DNA of 64,000 bases from Nitrosovibrio tenuis. Lineage in GTDB: Bacteria > Pseudomonadota > Gammaproteobacteria > Burkholderiales > Nitrosomonadaceae. The DNA lies in assembly GCF_900109785.1 (NCBI RefSeq), contig NZ_FOBH01000001.1, forward strand, positions 496,001 through 560,000, in the 5' to 3' direction. Both the position numbers and the translations under genes were made by a program. Below, in pieces: positions 2,973-17,073 of this stretch. Position 1 is the first letter of the stretch; each line of letters begins with the position of its first letter. Under the pieces are notes generated by a model that was not told the DNA's origin, did not search any database, and saw only the letters and a list, made by a program, of their open reading frames with translations.

Positions 2973-4449
2973 CGCTACCCTCCAGAATTCGTAACCTGAT
3001 CAGGCTGTTCATATGCGAAGTGGTCGCTGCCGACAGATCAACCAGCGATGCGGGCAGCAGGCCGAACAACACGATGCCGCCGACCAGAACACCGAGTGCC
3101 AGCAACTCAGGCGGCCTTAAATCTTCAATCTGTTTCATTTGCGGCTTAACCGGGCCTGTAAACAGCAAACCAATGGTACGGATCGCGTAAGCGGTACTGA
3201 TCAGGATGGCCAGACTGAAAAACACCATCAAGCCCCCCCACTGCCTGAAACCGCCCACCATCGCATGTAGTTCAGCCACCGCCCCGACCGTTCCGGGCAT
3301 TCCCATCGCGGCCAACAATGTTATGGTGGTACAAAATGCAAAACGCGGCATGACCTGAACCAGCGAGCTATAGTCCTGTATGTTGCGCGTATGGGTGCGT
3401 TCGTATAGCAGACCGACCACCAGAAACAATGCGCCCGCGATCAAACCGTGGGCGCTCATCTGCAGAACCGCACCGGTGAAACCAGTTTCGTTCAGCGTGG
3501 CGATACCCAGAAGAACAATGCCCATATGGCTGATCGAAGAATACGCGACCATCGCTTTAAGATCGCTTTGCCGCCAAGCCAGCAATCCGCCATAGATCAT
3601 GCCGAACAGCGCAAGAAATACCAGAAGTGACTGCAAAGCAAGCGCAGCTGTCGGAAGGAGGACCACTACCCGGAGCAGACCGTATGCTCCCATTTTCAGC
3701 AGAATACCCGACAGAAGAATGCTGACCGGGCTCGGCGCCTCAACATGGGCAAGCGGCAACCAGCCATGCAGCGGAAAAATTGGCATCTTGACGCCGAAGC
3801 CGATCAGGAAACCCAGAAACGCCCAAATCTGCTGATCCTTGGGCATGGTCTCCGATACCCGGCTCATTGCGCTCATCAGGGAGACATGCTCCGGAACGTA
3901 TTGATAGACCGCAATCAGACTGACGAGCATAAAAATGGAGCCACCCATCGTATACAGCACAAAATTGAGACTTGCTGTCTGGCGGCGTTGCCCACCCCAG
4001 CGGTCTATCAGGAAAAACATGGGAATCAAGGTCGCCTCCCAAAAAATATAGAAGAGAGACCAGTCCTGGGCAAGAAACACGCCCAACATTCCAAATTCCG
4101 TCAGCAGTATGCTGATGTGATAGCCCTTGACACCGATATTGATGCCGGAAGAAGCAAGTAATGCTATTGATGTGAGCAGCGTGGCCAATGCCACCATGGG
4201 AAGGGACAAACCATCAACGCCCAGGGCGTACGCACTGCCGACCTTGGGATTGATTGCGAAGTATTCGTTGAACTGCAGACCGGCGTCGCGCTGGTCATAA
4301 CTGAACAGCAGATAACAGGTGAATAAAACGGTAATACCGGCGAAAAACCTGCCGAGAGCACGGGTGAAATCTTGATCACGGTCGGGGATCAGTGCCAATA
4401 GTAAGGCACCCATCGCTGGCGTCCACAGAATTGCGCTTAAGATCCCCAT
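2965..4449 (-). CDS. dabB: DabB-type proton-conducting membrane subunit (NuoM/MrpD-like)
   Basis: This polytopic membrane protein belongs to the proton-conducting transporter family (NuoL/M/N, MrpD) and is the partner of DabA in Ci uptake, where it is thought to couple the proton gradient to CO2 hydration. Many hydrophobic helices are visible. Family-type conserved pieces are LFYIFWEATLIPMFFLI with its Glu, FGVKMPIFPLHGWLP with Lys and His, and HVEAPSPVSILLSG. I chose the ATG at 4449 (MGILSAIL); an in-frame TTG at 4503 would add 18 polar residues, and neither start has a strong ribosome site. It is the first gene of dabB-dabA, which runs leftward away from the sbt modules. The position directly before a DUF2309 gene separates it from complex I genes, none of which are nearby. 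Confidence 0.93.
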   Translation of the reverse strand: MGILSAILWTPAMGALLLALIPDRDQDFTRALGRFFAGITVLFTCYLLFSYDQRDAGLQFNEYFAINPKVGSAYALGVDGLSLPMVALATLLTSIALLASSGINIGVKGYHISILLTEFGMLGVFLAQDWSLFYIFWEATLIPMFFLIDRWGGQRRQTASLNFVLYTMGGSIFMLVSLIAVYQYVPEHVSLMSAMSRVSETMPKDQQIWAFLGFLIGFGVKMPIFPLHGWLPLAHVEAPSPVSILLSGILLKMGAYGLLRVVVLLPTAALALQSLLVFLALFGMIYGGLLAWRQSDLKAMVAYSSISHMGIVLLGIATLNETGFTGAVLQMSAHGLIAGALFLVVGLLYERTHTRNIQDYSSLVQVMPRFAFCTTITLLAAMGMPGTVGAVAELHAMVGGFRQWGGLMVFFSLAILISTAYAIRTIGLLFTGPVKPQMKQIEDLRPPELLALGVLVGGIVLFGLLPASLVDLSAATTSHMNSLIRLRILEGSDA

Positions 4450-4654
4450 TTCCTGGTGCGCCAACCCCCGTTTCTCATTATGGAAAACAACCGCCTGTTT
4501 CAATTAATTGCAGGTCTGTATGTGGTTGTTAGCTGTGTTTCTAACTGCTATTGCCGGCCATATATTATTTTTAGATGAAATAAAATAACACTGATTGTGT
4601 CATGGATTTAACAAATAAGTACAATTTTTTTTAATATGCAGAAATCATTTAAAT

Positions 4655-4696
4655 ATTCACAAATTAATCACGGATTCCGAATGTTTTCCTCACAAT
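4655..4696 (+). promoter_or_regulatory. Phased TCAC motif, copy 1
   Basis: ATTCACAAA, then ATCACG, then CTCACA, with the TCAC cores at 4657, 4668 and 4690 (spacing 11 and 22 bp). It lies between divergent dabB and the first sbt module and points right. No -10-like element follows at the usual 10-bp distance. It could be an extra operator; the binding protein is unknown. Confidence 0.6.
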
Positions 4697-4787
4697 CAAG
4701 CAGATACCCAAGCATTGAATTCTAATCATGGCATGAATGCTGCATAAAAGCACAACTTTGCTGGAATATTGTTGACTGCCGTACGAC

Positions 4788-4829
4788 ATTCACAAATTCA
4801 TCACGAATTCATAATGCTTTCTTCACAAA
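4788..4829 (+). promoter_or_regulatory. Phased TCAC motif, copy 2
   Basis: ATTCACAAA, ATCACG and CTTCACA with TCAC cores at 4790, 4801 and 4823, the same 11/22-bp spacing as copy 1. It is 133 bp from copy 1, also points right, and has no obvious -10 behind it. Confidence 0.62.
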
Positions 4830-5550
4830 CATGCGATTCGCACGTAAACACGAAGTCTTAATTCTGGTAAGTAAATTGCCCCTATGGAAGTGTAGCTTGT
4901 GCTTTCCACGATGATGGCGATGCCCACGGGCGATTTTTCTCCAACTCGATGGGAAGGCCACAGATTGAAATGCGGTAAGCAATGTAAAGCTTTCGTCAGA
5001 CTTTAGCGCGATGGGGAACCAAGAACGCTGCGCGAAGGGCCCGCCCTGGAGCGGGGATCGGGCAGTGGGAATGCCGCTACCACCACGCTTCGGGCGCCGC
5101 ATCCTGCTCTGGGTCGCGCCTTCCTGCAGAAGGCCCTGCTCTACCCTGCGCGGTTGCGCGCTATTCGGGTCCGACTTCCTCGTTTATAGACCAGCCCATT
5201 GCGCAAGGCCATCGTCGAGTCCCTGCTTGCGAGATAAGGTATTACTTATTCGGTATTTCCTCGTAGGTACCGTCAGGATGCCGATATCCAAGTCTTCGAC
5301 AGGTGATCCCAGGATGAAACGCCTGCACGACCATTTATCCCCGACCTCACATGAAGCACGAATTCTAATTGACGCTTCACGGCAGGGTTGCAATTTAAAC
5401 CTGTCAGACAGACCCCTTGGCTGTGTAACACGTAAATTCAGGCTATCTCAATGTTAATTTGGAGACCAGGCAAATTCTATTGAATGTGTTGGAAAGTTCT
5501 GGTGGAAGATTGAATGCAACATGGAATTAAATCCTTTTAACACTTATGAC
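4830..5550. other. Long non-coding stretch with a GC-rich island
   Basis: No convincing gene is seen here. Roughly 5010-5200 is clearly GC-richer than the AT-rich sequence on both sides and carries overlapping open frames on both strands without family features or good ribosome sites. From about 5350 (CATGAAGCACG) to 5510 the sequence aligns loosely with 8947-9150 in front of the second sbt module, so the duplicated unit begins here. Confidence 0.5.
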
Positions 5551-5592
5551 ATTCACAATTTCATAACCTATACAAAATATTTTCTTCACATC
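5551..5592 (+). promoter_or_regulatory. Phased TCAC motif, copy 3 (degenerate middle block)
   Basis: ATTCACAAT, ATAACC in place of ATCACG, and CTTCACAT, with first and third cores at 5553 and 5586 (33 bp apart). A further TTCACAT follows at about 5602 out of helical phase. It is part of a run of three copies before sbtA-1. Confidence 0.55.
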
Positions 5593-5638
5593 AATACTTT
5601 CTTCACATTTAAGGCCCTTCAACACGTTTACGGGTGAC

Positions 5639-5680
5639 ATTCACAAAATCATCACGCATAAAAAATTATTTTTTCACATA
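5639..5680 (+). promoter_or_regulatory. Phased TCAC motif, copy 4
   Basis: ATTCACAAA, ATCACG and TTTCACAT with cores at 5641, 5652 and 5674. It sits 88 bp from copy 3 and 79 bp from copy 5 in the same orientation, with no -10-like element of its own. Confidence 0.62.
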
Positions 5681-5717
5681 TAAATGTCCCTTTAACACTG
5701 CTTTTAACACTTCTAAC

Positions 5718-5759
5718 ATTCACAAAATGATCACGTATAAAAAATATTTTCTTCACATA
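5718..5759 (+). promoter_or_regulatory. Phased TCAC motif, copy 5, with putative sbtA-1 promoter
   Basis: ATTCACAAA, ATCACG and CTTCACAT with cores at 5720, 5731 and 5753. Ten bases after the third TTCACA comes TGTTAATTT (5765-5773), an extended -10-like element. The same layout precedes sbtA-2 and sulP. A repeat replacing the -35 about 10 bp before the -10 is how PhoB/OmpR-type activators act, so I infer the activated sbtA-1 promoter here, starting transcription near 5780 and giving a leader of about 500 nt. Confidence 0.65.
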
Positions 5760-5870
5760 CAGTGTGTTAATTTGCGCCCCAGTTGCTTGTTTGCTCCGGG
5801 GATTTAATTTCAAACTAATTGTCATCAGATTGCCTAAAAGATCTGCTTGATCAATGGAGGAAGCGTTTAA

Positions 5871-5948
5871 ATGATGGACATAAAAAAACAATTGCGGGTC
5901 AGCCGTTCGCTTGTATTGCCAGATGTTATTAAGTCCGTTCCCGTTTAA
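5871..5948 (+). other. Possible 25-residue leader ORF upstream of sbtA-1
   Basis: An ATG preceded by GGAGG 9 bases upstream opens a 25-codon frame (MMDIKKQLRVSRS...). A second mini-frame starts at 5980 (MTCVFLGNEQSS) behind GGAGAGAG. The DNA around both aligns with 9434-9560 in front of sbtA-2, where the same two starts exist but the frames differ. They may be leader peptides or relics of a decayed gene; I cannot decide which. Confidence 0.25.
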
Positions 5949-6279
5949 GTAATTCTTATTCACCATCGGAGAGAGAAATATGACATGCGTGTTTTTGGGA
6001 AATGAACAAAGCTCTTAAACGGAGATGAAACTTCTGATGAACTTCATCTCTATCACGGTGGAAGGGGATGTCGCGGGAACCGGCTTGGTGGCCACTGTGG
6101 TCTTCAGAAAAATTCCAGACGTTTACAGCGCGGTCTCCGTAGATCAATGGATTCTTCTCTGACGTGTTCATAACCACTCGATTACCCGACTTGAAGGTTC
6201 CAGTGTGCCCATGACGCCATCTCGGAGGCGGGTAAGTCGTGCAGTCTAATTTAACTAATTTTTAGATAAGGGGGTAGCG

Positions 6280-7260
6280 ATGTCAGTTTCCAGTCTTCTT
6301 GTACCGGCGATATTATTTTTCGCCCTTGGGATGTTTGCGTGTGTAATCAAATCGGATCTTAAATTTCCGCCTGATATGCACAAGATGATTGTTATCTACT
6401 TGCTGATCGGAATCGGACTGCACGGCGGCAAGGCGCTGTCCTCGTCAAACATGGGTGACGCCCTTCCCGCCGTATGGGCAGCCCTGGCATTTGGCATTGG
6501 CTTGCCTATCATCGCTTACATTATCTTGCGAGTCATTGGAAAGATCGATCCGCTCAACGCCGCGGCCATCTCCGCACATTACGGTTCGGTGAGCGCAGGG
6601 ACTTATATGACCGCGGTGGCATTCCTGGGGGGGATCGGCGTGACCTATGAAGCCTATCCCGTGATCATGCTGGCAATCATGGAGTCACCCGCGATCATGA
6701 TTGGCTTGGTGCTGGCCGGATACTCGCGAAAAATCATGGGAGGAGCGCAAAAGCAGGACAAGGGCATGTATAAGCATTTGCTGCTCGAGGCCTTTACCAA
6801 TGGCAGTATCCTGCTGCTGTTCGGCTCAATGGCGATTGGTGCAGTGGTGTCGGATACGAGCTACAAGAAGATCGAGCCATTCTTTGAAACCATATTCATG
6901 GGCGCCTTGTGCATATTCCTTGCGGACATGGGGATGGAAGCGGGAAAAAGACTATCGGAATTTAAAACGGTGGGTGTGTTCCTTGTCGGTTTCGGGATCG
7001 TGATGCCACTAATAGGTGCGTTCTTCGGACTCCTGTTGGGCCATTACTACCTCGGATACTCCGTGGGTGGTGTCACGCTGGTGACGGTGCTCGCCGCAAG
7101 CTGCTCCTATATCGCGGTACCTCCGGCGATGCGACTTGCGATACCCGAGGCCAATCCCTCTTTTTACTTGACTCTGTCGCTCGGCTGTACCTTTCCGTTT
7201 AACGTGGTGATCGGCATTCCTTCTTATTACGCGGCTGCGCAGTATCTGGCCGGGCAGTAA
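6280..7260 (+). CDS. sbtA: Sodium-dependent bicarbonate transporter SbtA, copy 1
   Basis: This inner-membrane permease of the SbtA (DUF897) family takes up bicarbonate with sodium in cyanobacteria and some chemoautotrophs. The 326 residues are almost wholly hydrophobic, about ten helices in two inverted halves. Family pieces are AAAISAHYGSVSAGT in the first half and LAASCSYIAVPPAMRLAIPEANP in the second. The ATG follows GGGGG 5 bases upstream. SbtB-1 follows after 126 bp, the partner arrangement expected for Sbt systems. A paralogue (10091-11041) shares the same motifs but is clearly diverged. A motif-associated promoter is predicted about 500 bp upstream. Bicarbonate as substrate is inferred from the family and context. 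Confidence 0.95.
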   Translation: MSVSSLLVPAILFFALGMFACVIKSDLKFPPDMHKMIVIYLLIGIGLHGGKALSSSNMGDALPAVWAALAFGIGLPIIAYIILRVIGKIDPLNAAAISAHYGSVSAGTYMTAVAFLGGIGVTYEAYPVIMLAIMESPAIMIGLVLAGYSRKIMGGAQKQDKGMYKHLLLEAFTNGSILLLFGSMAIGAVVSDTSYKKIEPFFETIFMGALCIFLADMGMEAGKRLSEFKTVGVFLVGFGIVMPLIGAFFGLLLGHYYLGYSVGGVTLVTVLAASCSYIAVPPAMRLAIPEANPSFYLTLSLGCTFPFNVVIGIPSYYAAAQYLAGQ

Positions 7261-7386
7261 GCGAGATTGCCTGGGAATAAGTTGGGGAATAAGTTGCCGG
7301 TCATTCGAAAGTATTAGAGATAGATCTGATCTGATTGAAAGCATTCAAATCCTGACTATCACGTAAACATTTTTGGGAGAAAAACT

Positions 7387-7716
7387 ATGATGTTAAGACC
7401 AGAAATTTTAATATCGATGAAGCGGATCGAAATCGTCATCGAAGAAGAGGAGCTCGATAACCTGATCGAGTTATTGCGGTCGGCGGATGTGCGGGGCTAT
7501 ACCGTTATCAAGCCGGCTGGCGGTCTGGGTTCACGCGGAGAACGGAAACCCGATGAACCTTTTCTGAAGGAAGATAATGCGGTCGTAATCCTGGCTTGTG
7601 AAGAAAAGCAGGCGGAAAGAGTGATCATGACGCTTCGCCCCAAGCTGAAGGATTTTGGAGGCATGTGTCTGGTCTCAGATTGTCAGTGGGTTATAGGACC
7701 GGCGGTTTCATACTGA
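7387..7716 (+). CDS. sbtB: PII-like SbtB regulator of bicarbonate uptake, copy 1
   Basis: This small cytosolic PII-like trimeric protein binds adenine nucleotides and regulates SbtA in studied systems. The 109 residues carry the ferredoxin-like start MKRIEIVIEEEELD, the T-loop region around GGLGSRGERKPD, and the C-terminal KLKDFGGMCLVSDCQWV. The start with GGGAG ahead gives 10 residues before MKRIEIV; the copy-2 protein has 6, so the exact start is uncertain. A hairpin (7763-7783) follows. SbtB-1 and SbtB-2 share most residues of the core. Confidence 0.93.
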   Translation: MMLRPEILISMKRIEIVIEEEELDNLIELLRSADVRGYTVIKPAGGLGSRGERKPDEPFLKEDNAVVILACEEKQAERVIMTLRPKLKDFGGMCLVSDCQWVIGPAVSY

Positions 7717-7762
7717 GCTGGAAGAGTGGTTCAGGTGACGATCAATCCTGGGTCAAACCGAA

Positions 7763-7783
7763 TCCCGGCTGATATTAGCCGGG
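7763..7783 (+). terminator. Hairpin after sbtB-1
   Basis: TCCCGGCT and AGCCGGGA form a perfect 8-bp stem with a 5-base loop, between sbtB-1 and the HTH gene. The following tract is only weakly T-rich, so it could attenuate or process the transcript and need not stop it fully. Confidence 0.5.
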
Positions 7784-7818
7784 ACCTATTCCAATATTTA
7801 ACTTGACTGAGTATAAAA

Positions 7819-8316
7819 ATGGCTAGACCTGCTAGGGGACGAGAGTTCGTTAAGACTGCAAAGGAGAGAATCGCATCAGCCAAAACGGTTGATGCGCTGC
7901 GTGCTGCCCAGGCATTACTCCTGCCGCTGGAGTTTGGGTTATCGCTGGAACAGACGGCTACCATCATTGGATTATCCAAGAGCCGCACGGGGAAGCTCCG
8001 GACACGGTTTCAGCGTATCGAAACCGGCGCTGAACAGGTTAAAACCAAAAAAGGATTGCGAAACCACGCCCGGATGAGTCTTGAAGAAGAGGTAAAATTT
8101 CTGGCGCCATTTGTTGCCCAGGCAAAAGTCACAGGTGCTTTCCCCGCCGCACAACTGAAAGCTGAACTTGAACGAAGCATAGGCAGGCCAGTATCGACAT
8201 CCACCGTTTATCAATTGCTCAGGCGTCACGGATTGTCAAGACTGGCGCAGCACCCGCAAACGACTATGTTAGTGGCGCAAGCATGGGAAAGAGTGGGCCA
8301 GCAGAAAGAGACGTGA
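7819..8316 (+). CDS. Double helix-turn-helix protein (transposase-like DNA-binding domains), copy 1
   Basis: The 165 residues hold a homeodomain-like HTH around residues 25-75 (GLSLEQTATIIGLSKSRTGK) and a winged HTH near 90-150 ending STSTVYQLLRRHGLSR. These two folds make up the DNA-binding half of IS630/Tc1-type transposases, but the DDE catalytic half is absent and no terminal repeats are visible. A nearly identical gene ends the second sbt module (11806-12297). About 5 of the first 88 residues differ, far fewer than between the neighbouring SbtA or SbtB pairs. It may be a domesticated DNA-binding regulator of the module or a transposase remnant; function is not known to me. No strong ribosome site precedes the ATG. 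Confidence 0.8.
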   Translation: MARPARGREFVKTAKERIASAKTVDALRAAQALLLPLEFGLSLEQTATIIGLSKSRTGKLRTRFQRIETGAEQVKTKKGLRNHARMSLEEEVKFLAPFVAQAKVTGAFPAAQLKAELERSIGRPVSTSTVYQLLRRHGLSRLAQHPQTTMLVAQAWERVGQQKET

Positions 8317-9194
8317 CCCCGGAGAATAATCAAACCCCAGCGCGGGCATGATTGAAGGGAATCTCTGAACAGGTTCTCTCAGTTGGCAACTAAGTTGGGA
8401 ACGAAGTTGATAATCACGCGCGAAGCGCGTCCCGGCCCCGGGCCGTTGCCTTGATCCCTCGCTTCGCGAGGCTTCCCTCATATAACCCCAAAAGTCTCAC
8501 AAAGCAGCCCGCTAGCAAAGCCGCGAGCGCCTCCTGCTCGCGAACTCCAGAATTAATTTTGATGTTCCCTGGTGAGAACCCGCAGATCCAGGTGTGGGAT
8601 CACCCGCAGCCGCCGAGCCCCTTTCGGTTGGCGTGTCAGAACGGCGCAGCCCTAACTGTGCGCGCAGAGGGAGTCACAGCCCCCTGTTCGCCGCGCTGGA
8701 TGTGGCTATCGCTCAAATCATGGTCCACTTGCACCGGCGTCATCCTGGCACTAAATTCCTCCGTTTATGTGTACCAGTCGAGCGTGCTGGTAGACTGGAC
8801 ATATCCGCTTGATGGGCACTATCGCATGCATAAAACATGCAATGTGCACTTAGCTTGCCCGACATTCGCTTTTCTCGCGATCACATACCCATTCGGCGCG
8901 CAGCTCAGCTTGGGGGAATGCTGTTATGTCGCTCGCGCAGCCTTTGCATGAAGCACGCATTCTCAGGAATGCCCGACAGCGGAATGCAACACAAACCCGT
9001 CAGTCAACCCGCCAGTCAACCCGTCTACAACCCGTCAGATAACCCACGTGGTCATACACCCCAAGTCGAATTCGTGCCATCTCAATTTTAACCTGGACAC
9101 CAGCTAGATTTTAATCGGCATTATGTGTTTCGTGAGGGAGACTGAATTCAATAAGAAATTAGTACTTTTTTAAAAAAATTGATTGTTCTTCGGT
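8317..9194. other. Non-coding spacer between the two sbt modules
   Basis: I see no convincing gene. Around 8415-8475 there are short perfect palindromes with GAAGC or CTTCG centres (CGCGCGAAGCGCG-like and CCTCGCTTCGCGAGG). A GC-rich part reaches to about 8720, then the sequence turns AT-rich. At 8998-9045 there is a degenerate short tandem repeat, listed separately. The part from 8947 on aligns with the start of the first module at 5350. Confidence 0.5.
8998..9045 (+). repeat. Degenerate tandem repeat, CAGTCAACCCG type
   Basis: About four imperfect units are seen: CAGTCAACCCG, CAGTCAACCCG, a variant CTACAACCCG and CAGATAACCC. The aligned place in the first module (about 5398) has a single CTGTCAGAC-like unit, so the array expanded after the duplication. 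Confidence 0.55.
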
Positions 9195-9236
9195 ATTCAC
9201 AAATTAATCACACATACAAAATATTTTTTTCACATA
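9195..9236 (+). promoter_or_regulatory. Phased TCAC motif, copy 6, with putative sbtA-2 promoter
   Basis: ATTCACAAA, ATCACA and TTTCACAT with cores at 9197, 9208 and 9230. Ten bases after the third TTCACA is TGCTAATTT (9242-9250), matching the sbtA-1 promoter layout. The predicted transcript would have a leader of about 830 nt before sbtA-2. Confidence 0.65.
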
Positions 9237-9433
9237 TGGTGTGCTAATTTTCGCCTCATCCGTAAATTTATATCCCCTATAACTAAACGGGTCTTTGCTT
9301 AACCACATATTTTGGTGAATATTCAAGTACTTAGTACGAGATATTTTATTGGGATACGCGTACGGGGATTTAATTTCAGACTATTTTTATCAAACTCCGA
9401 AGAAGAACTGCTGATCAATGGGATAAATAATTT

Positions 9434-9636
9434 ATGGAAAATGGCCATAACAGCAAATTATTGGCTCAGCTGTTCGGTTGTATCCAAATTGTTATTAATT
9501 CCATTTGTGTTTCAGAAATTCCTTACTTTCGGAGGAATTTATGACAATCGTATGTTTGAAAAGTGTCTTTGAGAAGTTAACAAATTGCTGGAAGCGGGTG
9601 GATTTCATGAAGGTGCTGTCTCTGCGACCGGATTAG
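9434..9636 (+). other. Two overlapping short leader ORFs upstream of sbtA-2
   Basis: A 36-codon frame (9434-9544) ends in ATGA, where a second frame of 31 codons (9541-9636) starts behind GGAGG. The overlap would couple their translation. The DNA aligns with 5871-6018 before sbtA-1, but the reading frames are not conserved between the modules, which argues for decay or for a regulatory RNA and against two maintained proteins. Confidence 0.25.
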
Positions 9637-9958
9637 AAGATATGTGTTGTGAAGCGGGTCGGTACGAATCAGCTCAAAATTCATATAGGGGCATTCAAGA
9701 AACCGAATGATAGCCGCGTGGCTGTGCTTGCCGTTCACGAAAACTGCGGCGCTGGTGCTGTGAAACAAGTTTTTTTGCGAGAGCAGACGCCACCCGTTCT
9801 CTGGAGGCGAGTCAATCAAAAAATCATTTTCATCAGGCGTGTGCGGTCGGGAAGAAGCCAGGAAGAAGTTGAGGCAGGTCAATGCGTAATAAACCTGATT
9901 TATGCAATTAATGCTGGGGTGCAGTACATGTAAATAGAGTAATGCTGAGGGTAACGTT

Positions 9959-10087
9959 ATGAATAGCAACGTCAATTTGGGGGGAGAGAAAGTGCTTAAA
10001 CGCCACATGCAACACAAAAGAGGCTGGGACATAGCGCTGGCAAAATCGCGCAGATCCTTACAACAACTGATCAAAATAGGAGGATAA
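9959..10087 (+). CDS. Small basic protein or leader ORF directly upstream of sbtA-2
   Basis: This 42-codon frame (start MNSNVNLGGEK) has GAGGG 7 bases before its ATG. It stops 3 bases before the sbtA-2 start (TAA, GCG, ATG), and its last codons contain the sbtA-2 ribosome site GGAGG. The product would be rich in Lys, Arg and Gln with no recognised domain. The close spacing suggests translational coupling. No counterpart is seen before sbtA-1. Confidence 0.4.
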   Translation: MNSNVNLGGEKVLKRHMQHKRGWDIALAKSRRSLQQLIKIGG

Positions 10088-10090
10088 GCG

Positions 10091-11041
10091 ATGCCAACCA
10101 TACAACCTGTAGTGGGATTCTTCATATTGGGCGTTTTAGCTGGCGTACTGAAATCCGACCTCAAGATCCCCGAGGCCTTATACAAAAGCCTGAGCATTTT
10201 CCTGTTGATAGCCATTGGTTTCAAGGGTGGAGTATCGATGGCCAAGTACGAGATCATGGACGTACTGCCCATCGCCCTGTCGATGGTTGTGCTCGCGGCG
10301 CTGGTGCCGCTGACGGCCTATCCTATATTGAAGAAGCTGGGGAAATTTAGTCAGGCCGATTCCGGCGCTATTGCCGCCCACTACGGTTCGGTAAGCGCGG
10401 TAACCTTTGCCGTCGGCCTCGCCTTCCTGGAAGGTATCAAGGAGACGTCCGAAGGCTACATGGTCCTGATAATGGCGCTTATGGAGATACCGGCGCTGGT
10501 TACGGGGACGGTGCTGGCGCGCATGGGTGCCAAGGGCACTACCCAGTGGGGCAAATTGTTGCACGAGATACTGACCGGCACGAGTATTTTTCTGATGGTC
10601 GGCGGCGTTATCATCGGTTACTACGCCGGAATGGTAAAACTTGTCGCGCCGCTGGATAAGATGTACATGGACCTGTTCATGGGCGTGCTGTCGCTCTTCC
10701 TGCTGGAAATGGGCTTGCTGGCATCGGCGCGGTTGTCGGCGATCAGGGCGAAAGGCCCGTTCCTGCTCGTGTTCGGCATACTGTTCCCGTTAACAGCGGG
10801 GTTCTTTGGCGCATTCCTGGGCGCCGCATTCGGTTTATCTACGGGCGGTACCATGATGCTGGCTGTTCTGTATGCAAGTTGTTCCTACATCGCGGCTCCC
10901 GCAGCCATGCGCATCGCGGTGCCAGAAGCGGATCCGGCGGTATCGATCGGTGCGTCTCTAGGGGTTACCTTCCCATTTAACATCTTCATCGGAGTGCCGA
11001 TCTACTGGGAAATGGCGAAATGGTTTAAAGGCGTAGCATAG
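10091..11041 (+). CDS. sbtA: Sodium-dependent bicarbonate transporter SbtA, copy 2
   Basis: This is the second SbtA-family permease, 316 residues of hydrophobic helices. It has the half-site motifs GAIAAHYGSVSAVT and LYASCSYIAAPAAMRIAVPEADP aligned with copy 1. GGAGG sits 8 bases before the ATG. Divergence from copy 1 is spread over the loops and helices, which suggests an old duplication and possibly different affinity or pH optimum (inference). SbtB-2 follows after 153 bp. A motif-associated promoter is predicted about 840 bp upstream. Confidence 0.95.
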   Translation: MPTIQPVVGFFILGVLAGVLKSDLKIPEALYKSLSIFLLIAIGFKGGVSMAKYEIMDVLPIALSMVVLAALVPLTAYPILKKLGKFSQADSGAIAAHYGSVSAVTFAVGLAFLEGIKETSEGYMVLIMALMEIPALVTGTVLARMGAKGTTQWGKLLHEILTGTSIFLMVGGVIIGYYAGMVKLVAPLDKMYMDLFMGVLSLFLLEMGLLASARLSAIRAKGPFLLVFGILFPLTAGFFGAFLGAAFGLSTGGTMMLAVLYASCSYIAAPAAMRIAVPEADPAVSIGASLGVTFPFNIFIGVPIYWEMAKWFKGVA

Positions 11042-11194
11042 TCTCAGCGCAAAAAAAGATGGACGTACTATCATTACCAAGGTGGCATTAGTAAAGCACT
11101 TTCTGGGCTGATAGTACGTTTCGATAGGACGTTACATCAATAACAGGGCGCTGCGGTTATACGGCCCTCTCTTTAATTATTCTCGGGGAAAACC

Positions 11195-11512
11195 ATGAAT
11201 TCTACGATAGCAATGAAACGGATGGAGATCGTAATTGATGAGGAAAAGCTCGAAGAACTGATAGCTCTGTTGCGTGAAATTGGCGTGCGTGGCTACACGT
11301 TCATCAAGTCAGCTGGCGGTCTCGGTTCGCGTGGGTCGCGACGCCCTGACGATATCTTTTTTGAGGAGACTAATGCCTTGTTGATTCTCGCATGCCTGGA
11401 ACCTACAGCACAGAAGGTGATTAATGCACTTCGCCCCAAACTAAAAGATTTTGGAGGCATGTGCCTAATCTCGGACTGTTCCTGGGTTGAAGGGCCAGCG
11501 GCTTCATATTAA
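11195..11512 (+). CDS. sbtB: PII-like SbtB regulator, copy 2
   Basis: The 105-residue PII-like protein begins MNSTIAMKRMEIVIDEE and carries the T-loop region GGLGSRGSRRPDD and the end KLKDFGGMCLISDCSWVEG, parallel to SbtB-1. In related systems the protein binds AMP, ADP, ATP or cAMP and blocks SbtA when energy or carbon status demands. A clear terminator hairpin follows at 11581, separating sbtAB-2 from the HTH gene. Confidence 0.93.
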   Translation: MNSTIAMKRMEIVIDEEKLEELIALLREIGVRGYTFIKSAGGLGSRGSRRPDDIFFEETNALLILACLEPTAQKVINALRPKLKDFGGMCLISDCSWVEGPAASY

Positions 11513-11580
11513 ACCTGACTTGGATTTTGCGAAGTTACTCATGTGTTTCGGGCATATTTTCTCACTACTCAGCCATTAAC

Positions 11581-11619
11581 CCTGGACACATCTCCTACCT
11601 AACTGGGTCCAGGTTTTTT
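11581..11619 (+). terminator. Rho-independent terminator after sbtB-2
   Basis: CCTGGAC (11581-11587) pairs with GTCCAGG (11607-11613) and is followed by six T. The loop is long (19 bases), so strength is moderate. Confidence 0.65.
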
Positions 11620-11805
11620 GGCAGCACGCTTATAGTCGTGTTTGCTGGGCTTACGCACTATTTGAGAGGTTGATCATGTTACAACACAGAGTTTTTCGAA
11701 TTATATGTTGGGCCGCACCGCGATCCTGCTGATGGCTGGCCTAAGCGGTTATCCGGGGTTCATTACCTAAAATTATTTGATTTAATTGATTTATTTGAGA
11801 GTGAT

Positions 11806-12297
11806 ATGGCAAGACCTGCGACGGGACGGGAGTTTGTTGAGGCTGCGAAGGAGAGGATCGCATCAGCCAAAACGGTTGACGCGTTGCGTGCTGCACAAGC
11901 ATTACTCCTGCCGCTGGAATTTGGGCTATCGCTGGAACAGACGGCTACGATCATTGGATTATCCAAGAGCCGTACCGGAAAACTGCGGACGCGGTTCCAG
12001 CGTATCGAAATCGGCACAGAACAGGTAAAGACAAAAAAGGGCCTTCGGAATCATGCGCGGATGAGCCTTGACGAAGAGGTAACGTTTCTTGCGCCGTTCG
12101 TCAGCGAAGCAAAAGATACGGGTATTCTTCCTATACCCCAATTAAAGGCTGAGCTTGAAAGGCGGGTAGGAAGACAAGTGTCAACTTCAACGGTTTATCA
12201 ATTGCTTCGGCGCCATGGGTTCTCGAAACTTACGCAACATTCTAAAACGGACGCAATGGTCACGCAAGCATGGGAAAGAATGAATCAGAAGAAATAA
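11806..12297 (+). CDS. Double helix-turn-helix protein, copy 2
   Basis: The 163 residues have the same two-HTH layout as the protein at 7819-8316 and no catalytic domain. The DNA of the first 220 bases is about 90% or more identical to copy 1 by eye, while the C-terminal third has diverged (LRRHGFSKLTQHSKTD against LRRHGLSRLAQHPQTT). It lies behind the sbtB-2 terminator, so it may have its own promoter. Repeated linkage to sbtAB makes it a candidate regulator of the Ci genes, but a transposase relic remains possible. Confidence 0.8.
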   Translation: MARPATGREFVEAAKERIASAKTVDALRAAQALLLPLEFGLSLEQTATIIGLSKSRTGKLRTRFQRIEIGTEQVKTKKGLRNHARMSLDEEVTFLAPFVSEAKDTGILPIPQLKAELERRVGRQVSTSTVYQLLRRHGFSKLTQHSKTDAMVTQAWERMNQKK

Positions 12298-12942
12298 TCA
12301 CGGTAAAACTTATGCTGGATATATTCGAACACCTGGTAAAAAAACAGGGTTATCTGATCTATTGAGGCTTTTTTCGCCTCCTGACACTGGACCAAGTGGT
12401 TAGCGGCACAAACTAAGCGTTGGTACAATTGCTGGTTTTTAATTCAATCGGGGCAGCGCAAGACTTATCGCTGCCCTGCCTACTTCCTTTTCCTTTTCCT
12501 TTTCCTTTTCCTTTCTTTCTCTTTCTCCTGCTCTTTTCTTTCTTCTCCCTTTTTTACTTTAGAAAGATTGAGAGTGTTGGCCATAAAGTACGGACAATTG
12601 TCCGGCTGAAGCGATCCTTAGGCGCATTTGCTCGATAGTGCGTTATTCACTCATGTCGCATGCTCGACTAGCGATGGCCTCCGACCGCGTTTATTTCCGC
12701 CCCGCATATTAGTTAGCGCACGTGTAAGTGGAAACCCATTTCATATCAGTTATTACCATTTTTACAGCGCTGCCCATAATTTTACATAAACTTCACATTC
12801 GTGATGAAATTGGCTTATGCATCTAATACCCGTAATAGTAAGCATAATAATTATAAGTCTATGTTTAAAGAGCGACAAAATAAGGAAATTTTAGATTTAT
12901 ATAAGACACAGGGAAAATCAAATGTGAAGATAATTTAAAGTA
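12298..12942. other. Non-coding region before the sulP promoter
   Basis: No gene is supported. A weak hairpin GAGGC/GCCTC with a T-rich loop lies at 12364-12380 after the HTH gene. A pyrimidine-rich stretch with hexamer repeats follows (12486-12550). The last part is AT-rich and contains TGTGAAG (12923) facing CTTCACA (12943), an inverted pair next to motif copy 7. Confidence 0.45.
12486..12513 (+). repeat. CCTTTT hexanucleotide tandem repeat
   Basis: Four and a half perfect CCTTTT units are followed by an imperfect CTTTCT pyrimidine tract to about 12550. It lies 400-450 bp upstream of the sulP motif in a gene-free region. The tract could vary by slippage. Confidence 0.8.
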
Positions 12943-12984
12943 CTTCACAAAAACTTGACAATTAATATACATAATCTTCACATA
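12943..12984 (+). promoter_or_regulatory. Phased TCAC motif, copy 7, with putative sulP promoter
   Basis: CTTCACAAA, TTGACA in place of ATCACG, and CTTCACAT with cores at 12945, 12956 (TGAC) and 12978. Ten bases after the third TTCACA is TGTTATGTT (12990-12998), an extended -10-like element in the same place as before both sbtA genes. The predicted leader to sulP is about 250 nt. Confidence 0.65.
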
Positions 12985-13050
12985 TCCGATGTTATGTTAG
13001 CGCCGTCTTTAAAGCCAAAGAAAATAACTGATGAGTAACCACCGTGATTC

Positions 13051-13245
13051 GTGGCAGAAACCATTGCCAGACTGTTACACGGCACCTCTATCTACATGGC
13101 CGAAGACGAGCTTCTAAAGTAACTTGAAGTCGCTTTCGGTGTATCCGTTTTCCAGTATGCGGCGAAAGCAGGCAAAGGACGAGGCGTCACCGAAAGCATT
13201 ACCGTGCCGGGTATTCTCCATAAATCTTATTCGTTAAATTTTTAA
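13051..13245 (+). pseudogene. Possible decayed small reading frame upstream of sulP
   Basis: From a GTG at 13051 the frame reads VAETIARLLHGTSIYMAEDE, reaches one in-frame TAA at about 13120, and continues LEVAFGVSVFQYAAKAGKG to a stop at 13245, just before the sulP ribosome site. The residue mix looks protein-like on both sides of the stop. I do not recognise the family. It could equally be leader RNA. Confidence 0.3.
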
Positions 13246-13258
13246 AAGGAAGATAGGT

Positions 13259-14602
13259 ATGAGCTCACATACTTCAGATAAGTCGCTTCCCACGGATGAT
13301 CACGGGTCCAGCGGAACAGCGGCACCGGTCGTCGCTCCTGGATCGGCCGGGTTCCAGGCAAAGTATATTGCCCGAGACCTGCAGGCGGGGATTATATGCG
13401 GAGCCATGGCCATCCCCCTCTCAACGGGGATCGCGATGATGTCGGAATATCCCATCAAGGTGGCGCTGGCAACGGTGGTTTTTGCCTGTTTCATCGGATG
13501 GGTTAATGCCTTCTTCCGGCCGGGCAACTATATCGGTGTGCCAGGGGTGGCGGCCGGCCTGGCGCCCGCCTTGGCTTTGGGCGTTCACAGCTTCGGCATC
13601 GAAAACATGGCATTTGCCATTTTCCTGACATCTGCCATGCAGGCAGTGGTGTGGAAATACAACTGGCAGCGGTATATCCTGCTGGCTGTTCCGGCGTATC
13701 TCGTCGAGGGGTTGCTGGCAGGAGTCGGTTTAAAGATTGCGCTTAAGTTTATGACGTTTACTTATGAGATCCCTGCGGATCAGGAGACGGCTGACGCATT
13801 CTGGAATGGCGCCCGTGTACAGATGGTCCTCATATCGCTGGCCGGATTTGCCATGTTCGTGTATCTGTTTTCCAGGTTCAAGAACTCGAAACCCGCAATT
13901 CCATACTTTCTGCTGATCGGCGCAAGCATAATCGTAGCCCAATTCATAACCGTCCCCATGCTGCACGTGGATGATGTGGAGCTTAAGCTTGCCCTCCCGA
14001 TACCACACGTAGAAGATGCCATGACCTGGGTATATCTCATCGGCTTCTGCGCGATGCTTGCGACCATCGATGTGATCGAGCAGGTCATGAGCAATGCCGC
14101 CATCGAAAAAATAGACCCATTGGGCCGCAAATGCAACACCAACAACAGCCTGCTTGCCATCTGGATAGCCAATATGGGTTCGAGCTTCTTTGGAGGCATG
14201 ACCAATCTCGATGGTCTGGCTAAAAGCACGACCAACAAGCTTGCCGGGGCTTATACAAAATTCTCCAATCTCGTCGTAGGGTCTGTCATCCTCTTCTTCG
14301 TGATCAATTCACACTACCTCGAGTACCTGCCGAAATTTTCGCTGGCTGCAATCATGATTTTCTCGGGCTGGAAAATGATCATGGGTCTGTGGCACGTCGC
14401 CCACTACGGGCAATATGCATTGATTCTTGCCACGGTTACCGGCCTGCTGGTATTCAAGATCGGCATTTTCGAAGGGATGATCGTCGCCTTGGCGGTGCAC
14501 GGGCTTGTCAACTATCTCGTCTTTAACCAGGCCGGAAAAATTCCAAGCAAAGTCATCATCAAAAAGTATTTCGAGAAATTCTCGGGTGGCGGGGTCGACT
14601 GA
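13259..14602 (+). CDS. SulP-family anion permease without STAS domain, likely bicarbonate transporter
   Basis: The 447-residue inner-membrane transporter is of the SulP (SLC26) family, whose bacterial members include the bicarbonate carrier BicA. After a polar start of about 35 residues come helices with the family pieces AGIICGAMAIPLSTGIAMM, NYIGVPGVAAGLAPALALG and NMGSSFFGGMTNLDG. The protein ends soon after the last helix (KVIIKKYFEKF), so the cytoplasmic STAS domain usual for the family is missing. AAGGAAGATAGG before the ATG is a good ribosome site. A UspA-type gene follows after 80 bp. Bicarbonate as substrate is inferred from the Ci context; sulfate or another anion cannot be excluded. 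Confidence 0.88.
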   Translation: MSSHTSDKSLPTDDHGSSGTAAPVVAPGSAGFQAKYIARDLQAGIICGAMAIPLSTGIAMMSEYPIKVALATVVFACFIGWVNAFFRPGNYIGVPGVAAGLAPALALGVHSFGIENMAFAIFLTSAMQAVVWKYNWQRYILLAVPAYLVEGLLAGVGLKIALKFMTFTYEIPADQETADAFWNGARVQMVLISLAGFAMFVYLFSRFKNSKPAIPYFLLIGASIIVAQFITVPMLHVDDVELKLALPIPHVEDAMTWVYLIGFCAMLATIDVIEQVMSNAAIEKIDPLGRKCNTNNSLLAIWIANMGSSFFGGMTNLDGLAKSTTNKLAGAYTKFSNLVVGSVILFFVINSHYLEYLPKFSLAAIMIFSGWKMIMGLWHVAHYGQYALILATVTGLLVFKIGIFEGMIVALAVHGLVNYLVFNQAGKIPSKVIIKKYFEKFSGGGVD

Positions 14603-14682
14603 GCAGGTCATTCAAAGGACGGCGGGCGGACTAGCACATCCGCTCGTCGGATATAGTGGATCGTCTACAAACAGGAGTTCGT

Positions 14683-15099
14683 ATGTACAGGAAGGTCATG
14701 GTAGCAATCGGCAGCGATGAAACCTCACCATTCGCTCTACAGGAGGCTCTGCATATAGCTTCAACCGACGGCGCCCAGCTATGCATAGTACATGCTGCGG
14801 CCAAAGCGGATGACGAAGAAAATAAAAATCAGCGAGCCGGGGCGGACCTGCTGGGGCAGGCCGCGTCGGCGGCAAGTGCCGTACCGCGGGTTGAAACCCG
14901 CTTGCTGAATTCCGACGGAGTATACGGCTTGAACGGGATAGCCGAAGTTATCGCAAATGCTGCTGCCGAGTGGGGAGCCGAGTTACTCGTGGTGGGTACA
15001 AAAGGGCGCCGTGGGCTGGAACGCCTGGTCATCGGTTCGGTGGCGGAGAAGTTGGTGCAAACGGTTGAAATTTCAATTTTGCTCGTTCGCCCGCATTAG
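14683..15099 (+). CDS. Universal stress protein, UspA family, ATP-binding type
   Basis: The 138-residue cytosolic protein starts MYRKVMVAIGSDETS, chosen because AGGAG sits 5 bases ahead; an in-frame GTG lies 27 bases upstream. It contains the ATP-binding pattern G-2x-G-9x-GS (GTKGRR...VIGSVAEKL) near the C-terminus. Behind a STAS-less SulP permease it may act as the nucleotide-sensing partner of the transporter, in parallel with SbtA/SbtB; that is inference. A partial copy of its 3' end lies at 15638-15706. Confidence 0.9.
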   Translation: MYRKVMVAIGSDETSPFALQEALHIASTDGAQLCIVHAAAKADDEENKNQRAGADLLGQAASAASAVPRVETRLLNSDGVYGLNGIAEVIANAAAEWGAELLVVGTKGRRGLERLVIGSVAEKLVQTVEISILLVRPH

Positions 15100-15123
15100 T
15101 TCATCGGCCTAAAAAATTTGCGC

Positions 15124-15167
15124 ATAATGTTAAGAATATGTGTACTAAATGTAAAATACTTGTGAAG
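15124..15167 (-). promoter_or_regulatory. Phased TCAC motif, copy 8 (degenerate, reversed)
   Basis: Read on the minus strand it is CTTCACAAG, TTTACA and TTAACA with cores 11 and 22 bp apart. It overlaps the start of copy 9 region and lies just behind the usp gene. No extended -10 follows. Confidence 0.5.
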
Positions 15168-15208
15168 TTGTGAAGAATATGTATAATATTTGTTAAGTAA
15201 TTGTGATC
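15165..15208 (-). promoter_or_regulatory. Phased TCAC motif, copy 9 (reversed)
   Basis: On the minus strand it is GATCACAAT, CTTAACA and TTCTTCACAA, with cores at + positions 15203, 15192 and 15170. The spacing is again 11 and 22 bp. It lies about 100 bp before the small gene at 15310, in the orientation opposite to that gene. Confidence 0.55.
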
Positions 15209-15309
15209 TGTATGTCAGCTAGGTTCTATTAATAAATTCTAAGCTGCTCAGGGCACTCTTATAGTTAGCGTGAAATTCCTTAAACAATATTCTTTTCAGG
15301 AGTCATTCC

Positions 15310-15525
15310 GTGAAAACTACTCATCGTATCTCCGCTTTAATATTGAATTTGAGTCTTCTCCTGCTATGGGCGGTTCCCATTCTCGCATCGCGGGAAATCA
15401 ATGCTGGGTGGCTGGCTATAGACTTCGGCATCGTGGCTAGTACTTACCTGATGCTCGCTTACCCCAATCTTTTCAGCTTCATACCGCGTCGCAATAAGCA
15501 GATTTTAAGCCGTGCCATGGCGTAA
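15310..15525 (+). CDS. Small two-helix membrane protein of unknown function
   Basis: The 71-residue protein begins at GTG with CAGGAG 7 bases ahead. Two hydrophobic stretches are visible (about residues 8-26 and 34-56: SALILNLSLLLLWAVPILA and WLAIDFGIVASTYLMLAY), followed by a basic tail RRNKQILSR. I do not recognise the family. Its place between motif copies 8-10 suggests control together with the Ci genes. Confidence 0.6.
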   Translation: MKTTHRISALILNLSLLLLWAVPILASREINAGWLAIDFGIVASTYLMLAYPNLFSFIPRRNKQILSRAMA

Positions 15526-15637
15526 AAACGAGCCTTTCGGGGGGGGGCGGGAAAGCAAAACGGGTCTATCCAGTCTACCCGCCCCACATCTTCTGCACGG
15601 TATATTGAAGAATGATTCCGACTCCAGTGAAAGACGC

Positions 15638-15706
15638 AATAAATTTATATCAGAGAAGCTCGTGCATACGGTTGATATTTTAATTCCACTTATTCGCTCA
15701 CACTAA
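15638..15706 (+). pseudogene. Fragment of a second UspA gene (3' end only)
   Basis: The frame FISEKLVHTVDILIPLIRSH ending at 15706 closely matches the last residues of the UspA protein at 14683-15099 (VAEKLVQTVEISILLVRPH). The sequence after the stop also matches (a CAAAAAAATTTTGC-like tract followed by a phased motif). So the 3' end of usp plus its downstream motif was duplicated, and the rest of the copy is lost. Confidence 0.7.
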
Positions 15707-15727
15707 ATCTCAAAAAAATTTTGCCTA

Positions 15728-15770
15728 TTATGTGAAGAATATGTGTATAAAACATAAAGAAACTGTGAAG
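15728..15770 (-). promoter_or_regulatory. Phased TCAC motif, copy 10 (reversed)
   Basis: On the minus strand the first CTTCACAG and the third TTCTTCACAT have cores exactly 33 bp apart (+ positions 15765 and 15732); the middle block is degenerate (TTAT). It sits directly before the gene at 15799 and is the duplicate of copy 8/9 downstream of usp. Confidence 0.5.
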
Positions 15771-15798
15771 TTGTGAAAATATATTGATGTACTATCAC

Positions 15799-16227
15799 AT
15801 GAAAATCAATTTGGTCAAAGCGCTGCTACTCAGTAGTGCCATATTCGCCGGGCTCCCGGTTCTTGCGCAACAATCCGCAACGACAGTCTCTTCCAAGATC
15901 GATGTTCTGTGCATACAAAGCGCCATCGATACTCGTGATACCACGTTGGCTAATATGGTTAGCGACTGGTCATCGTCGACAAAAAATGCTCTGGAAGCGC
16001 GGCGTGACGCGCTGAAGGGTAGTTGGAGCATAAGCGATTATAAAACCCGACGGCTTGCGCAACGGAAGGCATGGAGCGATTACCGCAAAGTCCTGCGCAG
16101 TGCAAATACCACCAAAACAAAAGAGCGGAGCCGTACATGGAAAAAATTCGAGCACGACCGCAGACAATGTGAGGGAGCCTATTCTCCCGAGATGACAACG
16201 GGCAGCACTTATGACGCACATCTTTAG
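15799..16227 (+). CDS. Exported protein of unknown function
   Basis: The 142-residue product begins MKINLVKALLLSSAIFAG, a typical signal peptide with likely cleavage near VLAQQ (residues 23-25). The mature part is charged and mostly helical (RRDALKGSWSISDYKTRRLA, KERSRTWKKFEHDRR), with two cysteines (CIQS and RRQCEG) that could pair. In-frame starts upstream (TTG 15784, ATG 15787) would add a few residues. I do not recognise the family. It follows motif copy 10. Confidence 0.65.
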   Translation: MKINLVKALLLSSAIFAGLPVLAQQSATTVSSKIDVLCIQSAIDTRDTTLANMVSDWSSSTKNALEARRDALKGSWSISDYKTRRLAQRKAWSDYRKVLRSANTTKTKERSRTWKKFEHDRRQCEGAYSPEMTTGSTYDAHL

Positions 16228-16488
16228 GCGTAACGTTCAATGAAATTAAAAGAGATCACAGGCGATATGAGTTCATTGCCTGAAACCCAAAAAGCGCGGG
16301 ACTCCCCTATTTAAAAAGAAAAACAGGAGAAGCGCAGGAATTGCCACCATCCAGGATGACTTGTTCCTCTAGTCTTCTATATTCGGCGCCCAATCTTCTG
16401 ATGCCGTATAGCAATTGATTGGCTGTTTATTAGCTATCTGTAATACGCAAGCGATTAATTTCTTTAACCTCTTTATATCGGTAAAATC
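16228..16488. other. Intergenic region without visible features
   Basis: About 260 bases hold no supported gene, repeat or strong hairpin. An AT-rich segment just before 16489 probably contains the promoter of the next gene. Confidence 0.4.
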
Positions 16489-17073
16489 ATGCTAAACAAA
16501 TCGACTCAAACATTTCTTTACTTTGCATATGGTGCAAATATGTTGTCTCGCAGAATTAATGCCCCGGATAGAGCGCCGTCCGCCGTAGCTATTGACGTCG
16601 GTTTTGTTCAGGGACGTCGATTCTCATTCGGTAAAATAAGTCGCGACGGCTCCGGAAAATGTGATATCGAGCTCACGGGCAATCCGAACGATCGGGCTTA
16701 TGGGATTCTTTATAAGATAAACAAGAAAGAGAAGCCGAGCTTTGAAGAAAGAGAAGGACTGGGGATTGGATATAGTGAAACGAATATCCAAGTCGTCACG
16801 TCAACCGGCACTTACATCGCGGTAACATATGTAGCGAGCTATAGGGAGGACCCGCTTCTGCCATATCAATGGTATAAAGCATCTGCCATAGCGGGAGCCA
16901 TTGAGCATGGTCTGCCCAATGAGTACATTGAGTGGCTGCGGACGTTTGACGCACAACCCGACTTCAATAAAAAGCGCCGTTCCGAGAGAGAATCGCTACT
17001 ATTCGGTGCGTTACCGCTAAGCCATTTTCAATTTAATACAGGTATGCGTCAGGCTGCCGTTCAGGAGGCCTAG
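16489..17073 (+). CDS. Gamma-glutamylcyclotransferase-like protein
   Basis: The 194-residue cytosolic protein of the GGCT/AIG2-like fold carries the substrate-loop signature YFAYGANM (residues 11-18) and a later FEEREGLGIGY segment, where the family places its catalytic glutamate. Such enzymes release 5-oxoproline from gamma-glutamyl compounds, though many members have other or unknown substrates. It stands alone, with a hairpin between it and the converging rsgA. Confidence 0.82.
   Translation: MLNKSTQTFLYFAYGANMLSRRINAPDRAPSAVAIDVGFVQGRRFSFGKISRDGSGKCDIELTGNPNDRAYGILYKINKKEKPSFEEREGLGIGYSETNIQVVTSTGTYIAVTYVASYREDPLLPYQWYKASAIAGAIEHGLPNEYIEWLRTFDAQPDFNKKRRSERESLLFGALPLSHFQFNTGMRQAAVQEA

Follow-up and report, generated by a model that had tools for sequence, protein, structure and literature searches.

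Tandem 11-bp direct repeats among inorganic-carbon genes of Nitrosovibrio tenuis as putative operators of a neighbouring two-component regulator

The window analysed in this study is a 64,000-nucleotide stretch of the Nitrosovibrio tenuis genome (G000:C22:496001-560000; genome of 3.10 Mb in 32 contigs), and the elements in question are ten copies of a repeated motif found in its inorganic-carbon (Ci) island. The island contains DabA, DabB, two SbtA/SbtB pairs, SulP and a Usp protein. DabA (3..2972, continuing past the window edge) and DabB (Proton_antipo_M; 2965..4503) are encoded on the minus strand. SbtA1 (Sbt_1; 6280..7260), SbtB1 (P-II like; 7387..7716), SbtA2 (Sbt_1; 10091..11041), SbtB2 (P-II like; 11195..11512) and the SulP family transporter (13259..14602) are encoded on the plus strand. 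Each site is composed of four 11-bp direct repeats, referred to here as slots 1 to 4, with the half-site TTNACA.

All ten copies listed by an earlier sequence-only reading of the window are present, at most 4 bases from where it had placed them, with seven on the plus strand and three on the minus strand as it had described. Two plus-strand copies occupy the gap between dabB and sbtA1 and are directed away from dabB (4656..4694, with CTCACA in slot 4, and 4789..4827). A further three lie upstream of sbtA1, namely a distal copy (5552..5590), a middle copy (5640..5678) and the putative promoter-proximal operator (5719..5757), the last having the top score genome-wide. The remaining two on this strand are the putative promoter-proximal operator of sbtA2 (9196..9234) and that of sulP (12944..12982), in which all four slots are filled (TTCACA, TTGACA, TATACA and TTCACA). 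The minus-strand copies are inverted relative to the adjacent gene, two of them lying between usp and orf15310 (15128..15166 and 15169..15207) and one just upstream of orf15799 (15731..15769). Copies beside orf15310-like genes are likewise inverted in two related genomes, G018 and G011 (L274 and L279). The copies directed away from dabB, orf15310 and orf15799 may be distant activator sites or repressor sites.

A search for TTCACA-N5-ATCACG-N16-TTCACA with up to three mismatches returned eight matches in the window, whereas 100 dinucleotide shuffles gave 0.07 on average and never more than 1. In a weight matrix built from the ten copies and two further genomic copies, all ten score at least 41.6, these scores being in-sample, and the next score in the window is 17.4. 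The nine other window positions scoring at least 8 also fall within the island (5.5-15.8 kb), and the matrix scan bore out the claim that the rest of the window has no copies. The three-block layout originally proposed holds in its 11-bp phasing, whereas its 16-base gap resolves into 5 bases, a third six-base slot and 5 bases. The ATCACG-like second block is not found in the copy at 12944 and in the three left-pointing copies, which have TTTATG, TTAACA, TTTACA or TTGACA at this position and TATACA or TACACA in the third slot.

The same anatomy was observed in related sites, 78 of which were merged to 54 non-redundant ones and, after seven overlapping or neighbouring array phases were dropped, to 47. 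The trinucleotide ACA occurs at slots 1 to 4 in 42, 32, 24 and 42 of these sites respectively and in no more than eight at any other offset between -30 and 59, with the A of slot 3 being invariant. In 27 of the 47 sites a TAnnnT hexamer follows slot 4 at a distance of exactly 10 nt (0-9 at other offsets from 3 to 23), and TGn precedes the +10 hexamer in 25. This -10 box is independent evidence because the sites were chosen on the repeats alone. Two half-sites followed by TAnnnT were also counted in 43 loci (L127-L153 and L257-L272, without de-duplication), where 21 occurrences fall at offset 10 and none of the other offsets from 4 to 18 has more than three; reversed sequence gave four in total over the 15 offsets and none at offset 10. 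Within the window the hexamer is present at +10 in four of the ten copies. Three of these define inferred -10 hexamers on the plus strand, for sbtA1 (TAATTT, 5768..5773, preceded by TGT), sbtA2 (TAATTT, 9245..9250) and sulP (TATGTT, 12993..12998), and the fourth (TATTTT, copy 15169-15207) lies inside the neighbouring copy. Longer arrays of about ten head-to-tail TTCACA-like units of 11 bp were found before a DUF6733 gene in G010, G012 and G013 (L278:1529-1665; L051 from 1502; L046 from 1505).

Tandem direct 11-bp repeats agree with the proposed PhoB/OmpR-like type of activator site, and the slot consensus TTNACA agrees with the view that the motif is not a Pho box, a candidate that was rejected on its half-site. 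LysR regulators are the usual regulators of Ci and cbb genes, and a regulator of LysR or CRP/FNR type was considered as an alternative. Such a regulator is highly improbable, as the sites are direct 11-bp repeats and not the dyads of those families, and it was rejected on symmetry.

The pattern with up to three mismatches has 17 matches in the whole genome, against three for a reversed control; eight of the 17 have 0-2 mismatches, and six of these eight are in the island. A sequence-only covariance model (R1) built from 12 copies found 13 genomic sites at E ≤ 3e-6, 12 of them its own training sites; ten of the 13 are in the island and the next site is 10 bits lower. Confinement to the island therefore holds within the window but not within the genome, where five further copies are found elsewhere. 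These precede a secreted-looking protein of 160 aa (C10:83143), a membrane-protein-like product of 132 aa (C13:323872), a DUF2490 protein (C21:27772; outside the R1 training set, E 1.1e-6) and, as weaker sites, an alpha-carbonic anhydrase with PEP-CTERM (C10:21623; E 0.0043) and a BBP2 porin (C8:21229; E 0.018). A second model (R2) was trained on all 15 sites of this genome, which makes its genome scan in-sample; out-of-sample E values are those of R1. The best R1 sites are thus concentrated in the island, although the regulon extends beyond Ci genes. The suggestion of a dedicated Ci regulator stands in its tie to Ci genes and not in the word dedicated, since four of the five sites elsewhere in the genome are not at recognisable Ci genes and porins and other envelope genes belong to the regulon.

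Searches of related genomes gave site counts that are lower bounds, with at most 150 candidates scored per genome (49 in the family search). R1 matches at E ≤ 1 were found in all 19 same-genus genomes searched, our own included. Of 12 genomes from the same order but other families, four had one match each (E 0.15-0.6) and eight had none. When the family was searched at E ≤ 0.001, 55 of 120 genomes had a match, consisting of 22 of the 23 in the genus, eight in the sister genus (g14) and 25 in g15. A total of 65 sites were found at E ≤ 1e-3 in 18 relatives; 34 lie within 8 kb of sbtA, 24 beside genes of envelope type or other genes that recur, and seven are unassigned. Every sbtA gene found in the 23 genus genomes (21 of 21) is preceded on its own strand by a site, at a distance of 124-861 bp, which reaches E ≤ 1e-3 in 17 cases and is weakest at 0.06. 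The spacing is retained in orthologous regions, and an alignment of seven sbtA upstream regions shows the putative operator and its -10 box as the main conserved block, the remainder having diverged.

Two HTH_23 (helix-turn-helix) proteins, one behind each sbtAB pair (7819-8316 and 11806-12297), are 82% identical and have homologues in the islands of relatives, with the second copy also matching transposase-type HTH models. The two sbtAB-HTH units appear to have arisen by an old duplication. This apparent duplication would fit an explanation in which the ten copies have no regulatory function and are repeats that were dispersed or duplicated. We regard that explanation as very improbable, given the conserved block of operator and -10 box in front of diverged leaders, the fixed +10 spacing and the occurrence of sites at unrelated genes. 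The leaders between operator and sbtA are long, about 520 nt (5758-6279) and 860 nt (9235-10090), and their sequence is poorly conserved among the genus genomes. A comparison of 4500-16500 with Rfam gave nothing at gathering scores, so neither leader is a known riboswitch at that threshold. The second leader contains the remnant of a Pro_CA_2-like gene (9670..9768, plus strand), of which an open version of 113 aa occupies the same place in G004 (L112), G011 (L126, L045) and G002 (L048, L117).

A total of five Trans_reg_C proteins are encoded in the genome, identified by eye as PhoB, a CusR-like, a CpxR-like, a 1,036-aa protein and an OmpR-type response regulator (RR) of 227 aa. The last is encoded some 8 kb to the left of the window (G000:C22:487593-488273) and has the domains Response_reg (PF00072, 8.3e-28) and Trans_reg_C (PF00486, 1.3e-18). 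The order of its locus is hemE, RR, histidine kinase (HK) and a gene like the catalytic domain of CsoSCA, with the dab cluster adjoining on the opposite strand. In L071 the CsoSCA-like gene (8622-9743, plus strand) has the kinase on one side and the dab cluster on the other, and TTAACT-N5-TTCACA-N10-TAGTAT was noted by eye upstream of it. By this RR, the nearest named relatives are Nitrosovibrio and Nitrosospira, followed by Nitrosomonas. Orthologues with at least 87% identity were found in 22 of the 23 genus genomes, and hemE precedes all 22 of them while an HK follows 21, the 22nd locus being cut. Extra RR copies in G015 and G032 (L099, L100) lie near a porin fragment with no HK-like gene found beside them; they have an operator-like site upstream and are the only RR genes with a matrix hit in that position. 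The sequence-only reading had left the regulator unnamed, but the gene for a specific candidate, similar to the ColR/RaxR group, adjoins the island.

The motif was found to accompany this gene pair. Seven loci were inspected from the eight sister-genus genomes with a match (G056 being the eighth), and in all seven the operator stands at the HK end, directly before sbtA (five, with products 87-88% identical to SbtA2) or sulP (two, 71-72% identical). We then compared 17 named Nitrosomonadaceae RR loci (L127-L141, L143 and L144), leaving out L151, which is cut after the RR, and L142, which is not named Nitrosomonadaceae. The matrix served as the operator criterion in L128 and L130, and the pattern of two slots and a -10 box in the other loci. 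In the 14 loci with sbtA, sulP or dabA in the stretch, the operator precedes that gene in every case, with a 9-nt spacing in L134 and, in L140, a sulP 4.8 kb away and one further match elsewhere. Neither criterion detected an operator in the three loci without a Ci gene in the stretch (L139, L141 and L143). A looser array pattern matches one additional place in L140. The typical position in the sister genus and in Nitrosomonas is between the HK and sbtA, sulP or dabA.

Beyond the family the same architecture occurs with different targets, as related RR-HK pairs in other lineages are followed by eptA, other envelope genes or sulP. The RR was found at E ≤ 1e-70 in 17 of 200 order genomes, four in the family and 13 outside. 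Eight of these 13 loci contain arrays with at least three of the four slots, directly behind the HK in seven (L257, L258, L262, L263, L264, L267 and L268) and distant in L265. Seven of 28 class-level RR loci also contain such arrays, mostly about 1.3 kb past the RR where the kinase gene is expected to end, and reversed sequence gave none in either set. The half-site is CTCACA after the HK and before eptA in L262, and TTGACG after the HK and before sulP in L264, L266, L267 and L268; L263 and L265 also adjoin SulP genes. Should the Ci-sensing reading proposed below be true, the SulP-linked relatives in three other families would imply that the RR-HK lineage met anion or Ci transport repeatedly or early. 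In L321, L323 and L324 the SulP-linked relatives are followed by what appears by eye to be a hydrogenase-4-like membrane complex cluster, perhaps another ion-driven device. The RR tree contains one supported group of 56 rows, which excludes six SulP-linked, two Colwellia and three outgroup rows.

A helix of the RR appears to vary together with the half-site. TTGACG is paired with DSD(A/V)LRAH and TTCACA mostly with TSDTLRSH, a purely descriptive pairing that suggests co-variation over few lineages. PhoB, the CusR-like and the CpxR-like regulator are the other ordinary-sized RRs with a Trans_reg_C domain in this genome (names assigned by eye), and PhoB also binds 11-bp direct repeats. Binding of the sites by one of these three is nevertheless improbable, as the operator accompanies the hemE-linked RR-HK pair across the family and in relatives beyond it and the half-site changes track the helix of the hemE-linked RR.

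We therefore consider it highly likely, from the sequences compared, that the ten copies are operators of four 11-bp half-sites for an OmpR-family RR, most likely the hemE-linked one beside the island. Repeat register, -10 spacing, conservation and the linkage of operator and RR-HK genes can be read directly in the DNA, and from these we infer binding, activation and a dependence on phosphorylation. Four tandem half-sites would provide room for two RR dimers, and the phosphorylated RR would fill slots 1 to 4, reach the polymerase from slot 4 and activate transcription. PhoB activates in a class II manner. With slot 4 ending 10 nt before an extended -10 at sbtA1, sbtA2 and sulP, the phosphorylated RR would likewise replace the -35 element, and this promoter geometry suggests a positive sign of regulation.

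Several observations weigh against this assignment. The hexamer at +10 is missing in six of the ten window copies (4656, 4789, 5552, 5640, 15128 and 15731). Porins, DUF2490, DUF6733 and other genes also have sites. No matrix hit (≥ 8) was found upstream of the RR in any of the 22 orthologue loci, so the RR does not look autoregulated. Good sites occur in G018 (93% complete, 260 contigs), in which no RR orthologue was found. The looser array pattern matches inside the HK gene of L143, a locus without a Ci gene. The helix pairing has intermediates, namely Massilia L150 (TTCACG/TTGACG with DSDTLRAH) and L262 (CTCACA with SSDALRTQ). Finally, the exact ColR consensus YYNASNNYTTTTTSAC is present in none of the 47 sites.

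The sensor part of the HK consists of about 101 residues between two membrane helices. A structure model of the kinase (mean pLDDT 72.7) shows a long helix and a small beta sheet in this part, and the best 50 of 702 Foldseek rows are mostly kinase cores, which say nothing about the ligand. In PMC8306577, ExxE just before the second helix is described as the metal motif of ColS and RaxH. This motif is absent from that position in all 18 Nitrosomonadaceae kinases compared, two of which have ExxE elsewhere in the sensor domain. In a wider comparison of 25 rows it is present at the defining position in four (L142, L146, L259 and L262) and absent from five Nitrosomonadaceae, six SulP-linked and ten other rows. 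As these ten relatives are unlinked to Ci genes, absence of ExxE alone does not mark a Ci system, and the idea that it was lost in connection with Ci was rejected.

Ci limitation, or something correlated with it such as periplasmic bicarbonate or pH, is the probable signal, and this is the weakest step. We tentatively propose, at somewhat less than an even chance, that the ColRS-like system of Nitrosomonadaceae is a Ci sensor, in which the kinase would read periplasmic CO2 or bicarbonate and the RR would drive the SbtA, SulP, DAB and carbonic anhydrase genes through the four-half-site promoter. The same RR could instead bind as an ordinary ColRS-type switch for envelope or metal stress, with Ci not being the signal and the Ci transporters merely membrane genes. 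This alternative has perhaps one chance in three: relatives, some of them without SbtA, have sites before porins, BBP2, DUF6733 and similar genes, RR-HK relatives adjoin eptA, PAP2/arnT or sulfatase genes, and ColR has envelope targets according to PMC2689224. Against it stands the gene order of RR, HK, operator and Ci gene in Nitrosomonadaceae, as does the site found in front of an alpha-carbonic anhydrase gene in four genomes from two genera (L031, L218, L220 and L217). The missing ExxE also speaks against it, weakly, given the ten non-Ci relatives that share the absence.

The ten sites are, very probably, landing pads for the nearby two-component regulator, whose family elsewhere controls metal and outer-membrane functions, and they suggest how carbon uptake may be tuned in these nitrifiers. 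The question of Ci control becomes directly testable now that a candidate regulator, a precisely defined operator and a predicted start of transcription are available. If Ci is the signal, a proteobacterium would here control Ci through a two-component system, and a sensor family would have changed its input and targets while its promoter architecture was kept. Among the matches listed in a literature search covering few subscription journals, none concerned Ci regulation in ammonia oxidisers or a link between ColR and bicarbonate.

Among known systems, CmpR, NdhR and CbbR are LysR-type regulators of Ci uptake or fixation genes; they belong to another protein family than the candidate RR and have dyad sites and no kinase. 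PhoB shares the geometry described here, with 11-bp direct repeats next to the -10 in place of the -35. The half-site of the Pho box is TGTCA whereas the one found here is TTNACA, and PhoB is, by eye, a separate gene in this genome. Background on the Ci toolkit was taken from PMC10880623.

RaxR/RaxH of Xanthomonas is an OmpR-type pair with eptA, lpxE and arnT as neighbours (PMC8306577). Likewise, eptA, PAP2 and arnT genes occur beside two relatives of the candidate RR, and the three RR copies found in each of three f63 genomes and in G677 (f230) recall Xanthomonas (PMC8306577). The Nitrosomonadaceae pair has different neighbours and a different sensor motif; lpxE, eptA and arnT were not found beside the RR in our genome among nine scanned neighbours and the annotated genes of the island and locus, and family relatives were compared with the gene set of our own genome.

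ColR/ColS of Pseudomonas putida is likewise an OmpR-type RR with a kinase. In the comparison made here, which covered class-level relatives, these are 40-55% identical to the candidate RR. According to PMC2689224, the ColR consensus YYNASNNYTTTTTSAC consists of two half-sites 11 bp apart, many members of the predicted regulon are membrane proteins, and oprQ is one of the verified targets. Our sites differ from this consensus by a mean of 3.1 of 13 positions at slot pairs 1-2 and 3-4, compared with 5.0 at pair 2-3 and 8.3 out of register. The Nitrosomonadaceae kinases differ from ColS in having no ExxE before the second membrane helix, and the system described here differs from ColR/ColS in its four half-sites, its fixed +10 distance to the -10 box and its Ci transporters as linked targets.

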